NCBI GenBank assembly: GCA_020350725.1
Contig: CP070719.1
Location: 489,696 to 522,362, forward strand
Direction of reading: 5' to 3'
DNA: 32,667 nucleotides
Source of the DNA: a bacterium
GTDB lineage: Bacteria; BMS3Abin14
Each line of letters starts with the position of its first letter. Positions within the stretch are counted from its first letter, which is position 1. Positions 25,710 to 29,796 of the stretch are shown one piece after another. The notes under the pieces were generated by a model. That model made no database searches. It had not been told where the DNA came from and saw nothing but the letters and a program-made list of their open reading frames with translations. The position numbers and the translations under genes are program-made.

Positions 25710-26075
25710 ATGCCCAGGGTTAAGAGGGCGGTTCACGCCAGAAAGAAAAGAAAGAGCATTCTGTCCCAGGCCTCGGGGTACCGGGGCGGCAGGAAGAACC
25801 TCGTAAAACAGGCCCGTAACACGGTTGAGAAGGCCCTCCAGTATTCCTACAGGGACCGGCGAAACCGCAAGAGGGACTTCCGTCGGCTGTGGATCGTGCG
25901 GATCAACGCCGCTGCCAGGAGCCACGGTCTCTCCTACAGTCAGTTCATGCACGGCCTCTCCGAGGCCGGTGTCACCATAGACCGGAAGGTCCTTTCGGAC
26001 CTGGCGGTCCATGACGACGCCGCATTCGCAGAGCTCGCCAAGGTCGCCGGCGTACATATTGGAGAGAGCGCCTAG
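25710..26075 (+). CDS. rplT: 50S ribosomal protein L20
   Basis: A 121-residue L20 with the canonical N-terminus [15 protein letters not shown], a long basic helical extension binding 23S rRNA, and the globular part [19 protein letters not shown]. It is 19 nt after rpmI. No obvious terminator follows; a CCCCCT/AGGGGG hairpin (26098-26134) lacks a T run. Transcription may therefore continue into the pheS leader. Confidence 0.97.
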
Positions 26076-26150
26076 GGCGAAGGGTGTCCGGAGATAACCC
26101 CCTCCCATGCCGCCACGCGGAAAGGGCCAGGGGGATCAACACAGCAGCAA

Positions 26151-26411
26151 AAGCTTTGACGGAGAGTGATATCCTGCCGTGACGCTCCCAGAGAGGAGAG
26201 GCCATGGGCTGAAAGCCTTTCCGAACGTCAGAGGATCATCTTTCCCTCCCGAGCTTCCCGCCTGACCCGATCACTAGGGCGGGACGGCCGCTCCCCGTTA
26301 CCGGAGCTGGGCACCAGAGGTGCCCGCCGAGTGCCCACGCGGAGCGTGGGAACCGGGGTGGTAACGCGGAATGAACTTCCGTCCCCAGCGGGCGGAAGTT
26401 TTTGTTTTTTT
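26151..26411 (+). promoter_or_regulatory. T-box riboswitch leader sensing tRNA-Phe, upstream of pheS
   Basis: Stem I is closed by AAGCT (26151-26155) with AGCTT (26252-26256). The specifier-loop motif AGTGA (26165-26169) lies opposite a loop at 26237-26245 containing TTC (26242-26244), a Phe codon one base before the lower helix. The AG bulge CAGAGAG (26189-26195) and distal loop GGCTGAAAGCC (26207-26217) match T-box stem I consensus. The T-box core GGGGTGGTAACGCGG (26355-26369) carries TGGT, complementary to the ACCA end of tRNA-Phe. An antiterminator (GGGG and CGGAA pairing with TTCCG and CCCC) competes with a terminator. Uncharged tRNA-Phe should allow pheST transcription. Confidence 0.85.
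26374..26411 (+). terminator. Attenuator terminator of the pheS T-box leader
   Basis: AACTTCCG (26374-26381) pairs with CGGAAGTT (26393-26400), followed by a T-rich run to 26411 interrupted by one G. Its left arm is also used by the antiterminator, so the two structures exclude each other. Confidence 0.85.
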
Positions 26412-26439
26412 GACACACAGGACGCGGAGGAGAGATTCA

Positions 26440-26467
26440 GGTTCCAAGTTCCAGGTTCCAGGGCCCA
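26440..26467 (+). repeat. Heptad repeat tract, four units
   Basis: GGTTCCA, AGTTCCA, GGTTCCA, GGGCCCA, in the pheS leader between the T-box terminator and the start codon. Confidence 0.8.
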
Positions 26468-26533
26468 GATCCCGGAGTGCAGGCGCCAGGGTATGGAAAA
26501 GGACCCAGAAGGGAGCCGTCGGCAGACTGCCAT

Positions 26534-26561
26534 TTTTGGATTTTGGATTCGGGAATTGGGA
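26534..26561 (+). repeat. Heptad repeat tract, four units
   Basis: TTTTGGA twice, TTCGGGA, ATTGGGA. The first 18 bases recur exactly at 32134-32151, 5.6 kb away. Confidence 0.75.
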
Positions 26562-26597
26562 CCTAATCCAACGCACCATCGATCTGGAGAGGGTACC

Positions 26598-27614
26598 ATG
26601 AAAAAGAAGGTGGACAAACTCCTGAGGGAGGCCGTCAAGACCATAGAGGAAGCGTCCTCATCCAGGGAACTGGACGAGATCCGGGTGCGGTACCTGGGGA
26701 AAAAGGGAGCGATTACAGACCTCCTGAAGTCCCTGGGCACCCTCCCTGCCGGCGAGAGGCCGGCGGCCGGACAGACCGTCAACCTCGCCAGGAGGAACGT
26801 CGAGGAGGCGCTCGTCAAGAAGAAGGGGGAGATCTCCGCGGCCGAGGGCGATCGCCGCCTTCAGGAGCAGAGGACGGACATCTCCCTGCCCGGTGTGTCC
26901 TTCGAGCAGGGGAGCCGGCATCCCGTAAACCTGGTCATGGAGGAGATCCTGGGGATCTTCCGGGGCATGGGTTTCTCCGTGCGCACAGGCCCCGAGATCG
27001 AGAGCGACTACTATAATTTCGAGGCCCTCAACATCCCCCGAAACCACCCGGCGAGGGATATGCAGGACACCTTCTACATCGACGACGACACTGTTCTCAG
27101 GACCCACACCTCTCCGGTCCAGATCAGGACCATGGAGACCGAAAAGCCCCCTTTGAGGATCATATCCCCCGGAAAGGTCTACAGGGTTGATTACGACGTG
27201 ACCCATTCCCCCATGTTCCACCAGGTCGAGGGTTTTCTCGTGGACGAGAGGGTCACCTTCGGTGACCTGAAGGGGGTTCTCATCGAGTTCGTCCATCAGT
27301 TCTTCGGCCAGGGCACGCCTGTCAGGTTCCGCCCCAGCTTCTTCCCCTTCACCGAGCCCAGCGCCGAAGTGGATATCGGATGCGTCATATGCGGCGGCAA
27401 CGGCTGCAGGGTCTGTTCGGACACCGGTTGGTTGGAGATCCTCGGATCCGGCATGATCCATCCGGAGGTGTTCAGGTACGTCGGCTACGACAGGGAAAGG
27501 TTCAGCGGGTTCGCTTTCGGCATGGGTGTCGAGCGGGTGACCATGCTTCGCTACGAGATCGACGACATCAGGTTGTTCTTCGAGAACGACCTGAGGTTTT
27601 TGAGGCAGTTCTGA
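26598..27614 (+). CDS. pheS: Phenylalanyl-tRNA synthetase alpha subunit
   Basis: A 338-residue class II synthetase subunit. An N-terminal coiled coil (~1-85) for tRNA contact is followed by the catalytic core: GPEIESDYYNFEALN, HPARDMQDTFY, LRTHTSPVQ, motif 3 FAFGMGVERV, and the C-terminal FFENDLRFLRQF. A four-Cys cluster C262-x2-C265, C270-x2-C273 before TGWLEILG is common in this family. Start at ATG 26598 with GGAGAGGG upstream; longer in-frame sequence runs through the T-box leader and is noncoding. It pairs with PheT and is probably controlled by the upstream T-box. Confidence 0.97.
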   Translation: MKKKVDKLLREAVKTIEEASSSRELDEIRVRYLGKKGAITDLLKSLGTLPAGERPAAGQTVNLARRNVEEALVKKKGEISAAEGDRRLQEQRTDISLPGVSFEQGSRHPVNLVMEEILGIFRGMGFSVRTGPEIESDYYNFEALNIPRNHPARDMQDTFYIDDDTVLRTHTSPVQIRTMETEKPPLRIISPGKVYRVDYDVTHSPMFHQVEGFLVDERVTFGDLKGVLIEFVHQFFGQGTPVRFRPSFFPFTEPSAEVDIGCVICGGNGCRVCSDTGWLEILGSGMIHPEVFRYVGYDRERFSGFAFGMGVERVTMLRYEIDDIRLFFENDLRFLRQF

Positions 27615-27744: not shown

Positions 27745-29796
27745 ATGAAAATAAGTCTTGAATGGCTCAGGGAATTCGTCAAGGTGGACAGGGACCCCCG
27801 CCAGGTCGCCGAGGATCTCACCATGGCCGGCCTGGAGGTCGAGGGGCTGGAGGACACCGACGGGGACACCATCCTCGAACTTTCCGTGACCCCCAATCGG
27901 CCGGACTGGCTCAGCCACCTCGGTGTCGCCCGCGAGCTGTCGGCGCTGTACGGCCTGAAGGTGAAGATCCCCGACCAGACCGTGGAAGAGAAAGGCGTCC
28001 CCGTGGAGGCGATGTCCTCGATCGACATCGAAGATCCCGGCGGGTGTTCCCGGTACAGCGGACGGGTGATAACCGGCGTCACGATCGGTCCGTCACCGCC
28101 GGAAGTGGCGAAAAGGCTGGAATCTCTGGGTGTCAGGAGCATCAGCAACGTGGTGGACGCCACAAACTACGTCATGCTGGAGCTGGGTCAGCCCCTCCAT
28201 GCCTTCGATTATCACCGGCTCGCCGAGAACCGCATCGTGGTCAGAAGGGCAAGAGACGCAGAGGTCCTGAGAACCCTCGACGGCCAGGAGAGGGTCCTTG
28301 ACGGCGAGGACCTCCTGATCTGTGACGGTCTCGGGCCGGTGGCCCTGGCGGGCATTATGGGCGGCGAGAACTCCGAGGTGAGCGACGAGACCGTTGACCT
28401 GCTTCTCGAGAGCGCCCACTTCGACCCGACCTCCATCCGGAAGAGCGCCAAAAAACTGGGCCTTGCCACGGAAGCGAATTACAGGTTCGAGAGGGGTACG
28501 GACCCTTCCGGTACGGTGCGCGCCGTCAACCGCCTGGCCAGGCTCATCCATGAATGGTCCGGCGGCAGCGTCTGCGCCGGCGTTCTGGACGCCCACCCGA
28601 GGGTGGAGGGAGAGCGCAAGGTCGCCTTCACCATGGGCGCCGTCAGGGACTACCTGGGCCTCTCCATCGAAGACCGAAAGGTCAAGAGTATCCTCGCCGG
28701 CCTGGGCCTGAAACCGGCCAAGGAGAGCAGGGACCGGTGGTCGGTGACGGTTCCCGGTTATCGCAGGGACATCGCCATCGAGGAGGACATCATCGAGGAG
28801 GTGGCCCGGATCCACGGCTACCAGGAGATCCCCGTCACCATGCCTGAGGGGAGGACCGTACCCGTATCCCCGGCACGAAGGGAAAAGGTCCTGCGGGCCG
28901 CCGGCGGCGTCCTCGAGGGAATGGGCTTTTCGGAGGCCATCAACTTCAGTTTCATCAGCGCCAGGGAGCTCGAGGAGCTCGGCGTCACCGGCGGCCCGGA
29001 TCCCGTGAGGCTGTTGAACCCCATCTCCGAGGAAATGGAGGTCATGAGGACGAGCCTCCTTCCGGGACTGTTGAGCTCCCTGCGGACCAATATCAGCCGC
29101 AGGATCGAGGACGTCCGGCTTTACGAGGCCGGCAGGGTGTTTCTCCCGTGTACGGCGTGCAGTGTTTCGGAAGAGAGGATGAGGATCGCATCCGTCATGA
29201 CGGGAAACCGCATCCGGAAGACCTGGTATCAGGAGGGCAGGGGGGCTGATTTCTTCGACATAAAGGGAACCGTGGAGAGCCTCATCAGGTCTCTCGGTAT
29301 CTCTGAGGTCTCTTTTCAGGAGATGGAAACGCCCTACCTGCAGCCCGGTCAGAGCGCCTGGGTCATGATCGGCGACAGGTCCGTGGGCCCCGTCGGCACC
29401 CTCCACCCGCGTATCAGGGAGAAGTACGACATCAAGGACTGGGCCGGCTGTTTCGAGCTCGACCTGGATCCCATCGAGGAAAACGCCCTGGGTCACACCC
29501 CTTACAGGTCCCTGCCCCGCTATCCCGCTGTTCTCAGGGACCTTGCCCTCCTGGCCCCCGTCGGCGTGCCCGCCCTGGAGATCGAGGCGGTGTTGTCGGA
29601 AACGGGGACGGACGTTGCGGACATCAGGCTCTTTGACCTCTACCAGGGCAAGGGGATCGCCGAGGGATTTCGTAGCCTGGCCTATTCCCTGGCCTTTCAG
29701 AGCCACGACAGGACCCTGACGGACGAGGAGGTGGACGCTTCCGTTGACAGGATCCTGAAGGAACTGAAGAAGCGGTTTAGGGTGAAGCTGCGGTAG
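27745..29796 (+). CDS. pheT: Phenylalanyl-tRNA synthetase beta subunit, short form lacking the EMAP-like domain
   Basis: A 683-residue PheT, about 110 residues shorter than typical bacterial forms (~790-800). The N-terminal ISLEWLREFV and GLEVEG (29-34) run almost directly into ELSVTPNR (45-52). The tRNA-binding EMAP/OB insertion normally found between them is therefore missing. B3/B4 (SRYSGRVI to LGQPLHAFD), B5 (FERGTDPSG, IEEDIIEEVARIHGY), the catalytic-like core and the C-terminal FDX-ACB anticodon-binding domain (~590-683) are all present. AAGGA lies upstream of the ATG. The frame is intact, so this is a clean domain loss, not a frameshift. Confidence 0.96.
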   Translation: MKISLEWLREFVKVDRDPRQVAEDLTMAGLEVEGLEDTDGDTILELSVTPNRPDWLSHLGVARELSALYGLKVKIPDQTVEEKGVPVEAMSSIDIEDPGGCSRYSGRVITGVTIGPSPPEVAKRLESLGVRSISNVVDATNYVMLELGQPLHAFDYHRLAENRIVVRRARDAEVLRTLDGQERVLDGEDLLICDGLGPVALAGIMGGENSEVSDETVDLLLESAHFDPTSIRKSAKKLGLATEANYRFERGTDPSGTVRAVNRLARLIHEWSGGSVCAGVLDAHPRVEGERKVAFTMGAVRDYLGLSIEDRKVKSILAGLGLKPAKESRDRWSVTVPGYRRDIAIEEDIIEEVARIHGYQEIPVTMPEGRTVPVSPARREKVLRAAGGVLEGMGFSEAINFSFISARELEELGVTGGPDPVRLLNPISEEMEVMRTSLLPGLLSSLRTNISRRIEDVRLYEAGRVFLPCTACSVSEERMRIASVMTGNRIRKTWYQEGRGADFFDIKGTVESLIRSLGISEVSFQEMETPYLQPGQSAWVMIGDRSVGPVGTLHPRIREKYDIKDWAGCFELDLDPIEENALGHTPYRSLPRYPAVLRDLALLAPVGVPALEIEAVLSETGTDVADIRLFDLYQGKGIAEGFRSLAYSLAFQSHDRTLTDEEVDASVDRILKELKKRFRVKLR

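Follow-up and report, generated by a model that had tools for sequence, protein, structure and literature searches.

A T-box riboswitch joined to a transcription terminator is located between rplT and pheST at positions 26147-26412 of the window (the whole stretch of 32,667 nt that was analyzed; all features described here lie on its forward strand). The element has the RNA family, a covariation-backed structure, a specifier, a terminator, and a conserved place in its clade, and it very probably operates as a transcriptional, Phe-specific T-box controlling pheST. By family the pheS element is a T-box, and by its specifier loop it is a clade variant. T-boxes are known chiefly from Gram-positive bacteria. 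Outside Firmicutes and Actinobacteria they have been described in Chloroflexi, in Deinococcus (ile, gly), and before leuA in Geobacter/Pelobacter (PMC2494555; PMC3766115), and the rarity of such elements pointed out in the first-pass annotation is supported. A limited literature search returned no report of a T-box before pheS in a proteobacterium-like lineage. With this element, a small uncultured phylum whose PheS is near that of Pseudomonadota joins the lineages in which T-boxes control aminoacyl-tRNA synthetases; the element also demonstrates that such T-boxes can score under the Rfam gathering threshold and escape annotation.

Identity and architecture of the pheS leader

The Rfam T-box model RF00230, which the first-pass annotation had named as one way to check its reading of 26151-26411, matches positions 26147-26389 over model positions 1-219 of 219 with 81.1 bits and E=5e-18 (6.1e-18 for the same match in a whole-genome search). 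This full-length match, together with the covariation among eight relatives described below, confirms the T-box identity. The score is significant and still under the Rfam gathering score of 93 for this family, so that annotation at that cut-off would miss the element; a gathering-threshold Rfam scan of the window reported only rRNA and tRNA, the pheS T-box being absent. The minimum free energy of the leader is lower than that of all dinucleotide shuffles (200/200, z=-3.4). The genome contains a second T-box, a canonical one before ileS (102 bits), and no further one.

The gene order is thrS, infC, rpmI, rplT, T-box, pheS, pheT, a gene for an HU/IHF-family DNA-binding protein, and a gene for a MerR-type regulator. 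The last gene of the thrS-infC-rpmI-rplT group, rplT (25710-26075; Pfam PF00453), is followed by the leader and by the regulated gene pheS (26598-27614; PF01409 and PF02912), and then by pheT (27745-29796), which encodes 683 aa with the Pfam domains B3_4, B5, beta CLM, and FDX-ACB and no tRNA_bind domain. The PheT proteins of the clade are of this length (~683 aa) and are devoid of the ~120-aa tRNA_bind (B2) region; the examined PheT proteins of Desulfuromonadales, Desulfobacterota, and Gammaproteobacteria are ~800 aa long and have this region.

The complete leader, comprising aptamer, antiterminator/terminator, and U tract, is delimited by the RF00230 match, the terminator-like site, and the eight-genome covariation. 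The parts that had been read from the letters (closing helix, AG bulge, distal loop, TTC, TGGT, and overlapping antiterminator and terminator) all proved to be in place. Stem I (26151-26256), read from the sequence and corresponding to helices 1-5 of the covariation count, includes the closing helix AAGC/GCUU (26151-26154/26253-26256), the K-turn helix GGAG/CUCC (26161-26164/26246-26249), the AG bulge AGAGA (26190-26194), the distal stem GGAGAGGC/GCCUUUCC (26195-26202/26215-26222), the distal loop GGCTGAAAGCC (26207-26217), and the Phe specifier codon UUC (26242-26244). The AGTGA noted on the 5' strand of the specifier loop is present (26165-26169) but does not form half of a canonical S-turn, since the opposing GAA is missing; G26168 and A26169 are instead base-paired with the facing strand. 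Stem II (26257-26283; helix 6) is formed by CCCGCCU/GGGCGGG, and Stem IIA/B (26285-26307; helices 7 and 8) by CGG/CCG, with a pseudoknot from GCUCC (26290-26294) to GGAGC (26303-26307). Stem III (26329-26352; helix 10) contains the helix CCCACGC/GCGUGGG (26334-26340/26344-26350), flanked in the alignment by RRRxG (here GAGUG) and AA, a conserved motif taken from PMC7583486. The antiterminator GGGGUGGUAACGCGGAA...UUCCGUCCCC (26355-26386; helices 11-12) carries the UGGU bulge (26359-26362), predicted to bind the tRNA acceptor end and invariant in the eight relatives. The intrinsic terminator (26373-26412; z=-4.8) consists of a 12-bp hairpin (26373-26401) and a U tract. Antiterminator and terminator share UUCCGUCCCC and are mutually exclusive, the terminator being the stronger (-18.2 vs. 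-10.9 kcal/mol).

Conservation in the clade and the variant specifier loop

The genome falls in a GTDB phylum represented by 12 species, all of one family, including CP070698.1 (bacterium bin582) and JAFGWO01 (Proteobacteria bacterium ZodW_Metabat.265). Deltaproteobacteria, the placing hinted at in the first-pass annotation, is not the best one, as the genome belongs to its own small phylum and its PheS is sister to that of Pseudomonadota; the label "Gram-negative" is suggested solely by PheS kinship and gene content. A T-box was found at E <= 0.001 in 10/12 genomes of the phylum and, before pheS, in eight of them (G000, which is the genome studied here, G001, G002, G004, G005, G006, G007, and G008). 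All eight pheS T-boxes are located downstream of rplT with no intervening gene; in G001 the start of pheS is present, and an assembly gap then cuts the gene.

RNAalifold applied to the alignment without a preset structure recovers the T-box layout. Across the eight genomes, 92.1% of cells pair in the named T-box structure, a share that is biased towards the structure because the pairs were taken from the same sequences, and the better evidence is provided by two-sided changes, which were observed for 27 pairs as compared with a shuffled mean of 12.9 (0/500 shuffles as high). Sliding the partners by one column lowers pairing to <59%. The two-sided changes are distributed over Stem I (upper and distal stems), Stem II, Stem IIA/B with its pseudoknot, and Stem III; the outer pair of the IIA/B pseudoknot, for example, is GC, UA, or CG depending on the genome. 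The K-turn, AG bulge, and distal loop of Stem I are kept in all eight. The pheS T-box of G004 (L103) has an insertion of ~150 nt between Stem IIA/B and Stem III, with the flanking domains kept. Short imperfect repeats, e.g., GGTTCCAAGTTCCAGGTTCCAGG and CTGAATACTGAATCCTGAATACTGAATCC, occur in terminator-to-start spacers or upstream of leaders (window positions 26435-26560; L001:1790-1860; L139; L141).

In most T-box RNAs, AGUA faces GAA across the specifier loop, although this is not a strict requirement (PMC4695836). A purine 3' of the specifier is conserved and has been described as critical (PMC7583486), without being strictly needed for membership of the family. The AGUA/GAA S-turn is absent from all eight pheS T-boxes of the clade, whereas AGTA occupies the 5' strand of the loop in 36/37 other T-boxes (clade ileS, Desulfuromonadales leuA, Bacillota, and others), a contrast that is only descriptive, since a model of canonical T-boxes was used to find the 37 and related genomes do not count as independent. 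In place of AGUA, the eight pheS loops have AGUGA, AGUGG, ACCGG, AUCGG, or CGCGG with no GAA opposite, and their bases form ordinary pairs (columns 39-41 with 111-113) that show two-sided changes. The base after UUC, where most T-boxes have a purine, is C in four genomes (C26245 in G000; also G001, G006, and G008); the remaining four have A. The Stem II S-turn is also altered in G000 and G001; in G000 it reads ACUA for AGUA, the bulged G being changed.

Possibly, although we regard this as rather doubtful, these elements constitute a distinct subclass of Phe T-boxes with a minimal loop in which 3 nt face [U/C]UUC[C/A], without an S-turn and partly with C instead of the stacking purine. In the ribosome, C1400 holds the place of the purine stacked below the codon-anticodon duplex (PMC7583486), and if the subclass were real, its loop might read an anticodon in a manner closer to that of the ribosome. 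A role proposed for the S-turn is to prevent the modified base 37 of the tRNA from clashing (PMC7583486), an idea that a Phe T-box without an S-turn makes testable.

Proposed regulation and alternative readings

The UUC specifier is invariant in 8/8 relatives and lies directly above the K-turn helix, where specifiers are located. tRNA-Phe with anticodon GAA and an ACCA end, fitting both UUC and UGGU, was found in six relatives, and the previously claimed Phe specificity agrees with these data. In G000 itself tRNA-Phe was not located by a family scan and pattern searches (one pattern having too short a D-loop gap). The family scan detected 36 tRNA genes, none of them for tRNA-Phe, tRNA-Ile, or tRNA-His; since it misses other essential tRNAs (Ile, His), the missing tRNA-Phe is not taken as absence and is probably a limit of the scan. 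The start codon of pheS is ~185 nt past the terminator, a distance that makes control of translation initiation unlikely. The transcriptional mechanism and the control of pheS put forward earlier are supported.

In the mechanism that we propose from the sequence, the binding of tRNA and the in vivo steps of termination and antitermination are all predicted events. RNA polymerase arriving through rplT would transcribe the leader. Uncharged tRNA-Phe(GAA) would contact the leader twice, its anticodon pairing with the Stem I UUC and its free ACCA end with the UGGU bulge, so that the antiterminator would be stabilized and pheST transcribed. Charged tRNA-Phe would not make the second contact, and the stronger terminator would form near 26412, stopping transcription before pheS. 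The upstream ribosomal-protein genes would be unaffected by the switch.

No sigma-70-like promoter site was found by a promoter scan of 25900-26620, and in 7/8 genomes the promoter match for the pheS T-box is 6-8 of 12, about the background (mean 7). A perfect TTGACA precedes 6/8 of the ileS T-boxes tested, and in five of these a -10-like hexamer lies at a constant 46-48 nt ahead of the T-box. On this difference the pheS T-box, with no promoter-like site, probably gates read-through from the upstream ribosomal-protein operon, whereas the ileS T-box, with such a site, appears to start its own transcript. That pheST is a separate transcription unit with its own promoter just upstream of the T-box seems unlikely from these matches, although the ~72 nt from rplT to the T-box are available, the scan is blind to promoters of other sigma factors, and the pheS T-box of G005 has a 9-of-12 match; such a promoter would alter the operon layout and not the T-box mechanism, and so overlaps with the favored explanation. 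The proposal in the first-pass annotation that the synthetase is controlled apart from the ribosomal protein genes fits the position of the element and the absence of promoter-like sites and is best read as a suggestion. A pheM-type attenuator as in E. coli, in which ribosome stalling at Phe codons governs the terminator, would suit the gene order, which, with an HU/IHF-family gene after pheT, matches that of E. coli. The stretch 26070-26598 contains no short frame with consecutive Phe codons, and attenuation would leave the whole T-box architecture unexplained; it was rejected for want of a Phe-rich short frame, and we consider its probability negligible. The further claim, that the T-box stands in for the peptide attenuation of E. 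coli, is conjecture: the leader lacks a Phe-rich peptide, but there is no sign of an ancestral one.

Loss of T-box parts elsewhere in the clade bears on whether this copy still senses tRNA. In G003 (L131) and G009 (L130:660-1530), rplT and pheS are separated by a TrkA-like gene (assigned by reading of the translation, not by Pfam), and the stretch just before pheS aligns to the antiterminator/terminator of G005 and G007 (0/2000 shuffles as good). This stretch has no Rfam T-box match, and its sequence marks it as a T-box terminator fossil without an aptamer; the ileS genes of both genomes have no T-box. The pheS T-box of G007 is without Stem II, and before ileS in the same genome (L139) only the antiterminator and terminator are left, directly below a TTGACA promoter-like site, with Stems I, II, and III gone. 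It is therefore conceivable that the copy studied here is itself decaying, with a working terminator, lost or weak tRNA sensing, and a fixed pheST level: it deviates in both S-turns and in the purine position that follows the specifier, nothing but a terminator remnant is left before pheS in genus g4, and the G007 ileS leader is reduced as described. Such decay is quite improbable in view of the 27 pairs with two-sided changes, the UUC and UGGU bulge that are invariant over eight genomes, and the intact discriminator part. With T-boxes that are intact, altered, or half-deleted in similar gene surroundings, the clade provides a natural series in which the loss of a tRNA-sensing switch can be studied.

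Origin and comparison with known systems

A PheS tree with 89 rows places the clade as the sister group of Pseudomonadota (96/85), separate from the T-box-bearing Bacillota PheS. Joint import of T-box and pheS from Bacillota is thereby ruled out; the T-box may have been inherited or may have arrived alone by transfer. No T-box sequence was detected in up to 800 nt before pheS in nearby lineages with the rplT-pheS order, including Desulfuromonadales and Gammaproteobacteria.

The pheS T-boxes of Bacillota, found here before four pheS genes, have all domains in common with the clade element, as well as the UUC specifier and the control of pheS. They contain AGUA/GAA and a purine after UUC and are not located directly after rplT, whereas the clade element has ordinary pairs for the S-turn, C as the next base (in this copy), and a place between rplT and pheS. 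A canonical T-box between rplT and pheS was observed in a genome of another phylum (G050, L101), the PheS of which groups near Bacillota. The leuA T-boxes are known in Geobacter/Pelobacter, Gram-negatives formerly called Deltaproteobacteria (PMC2494555). The nine Desulfuromonadales leuA T-boxes found here differ from the clade element in controlling leucine synthesis and in having a canonical specifier loop, and their genomes have no T-box before pheS. The B. subtilis alaS T-box also lacks the loop E (S-turn) motif (PMC4695836). The S-turn missing from alaS is that of Stem II, whereas in the clade pheS T-boxes it is that of the specifier loop in all eight, with the Stem II motif altered as well in this copy. 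In E. coli, the pheM attenuator lies at this very position of an identical gene order and responds to the same signal, the charging of tRNA-Phe, which is sensed there by the ribosome on a Phe-rich leader peptide, whereas the clade leader has no such peptide.
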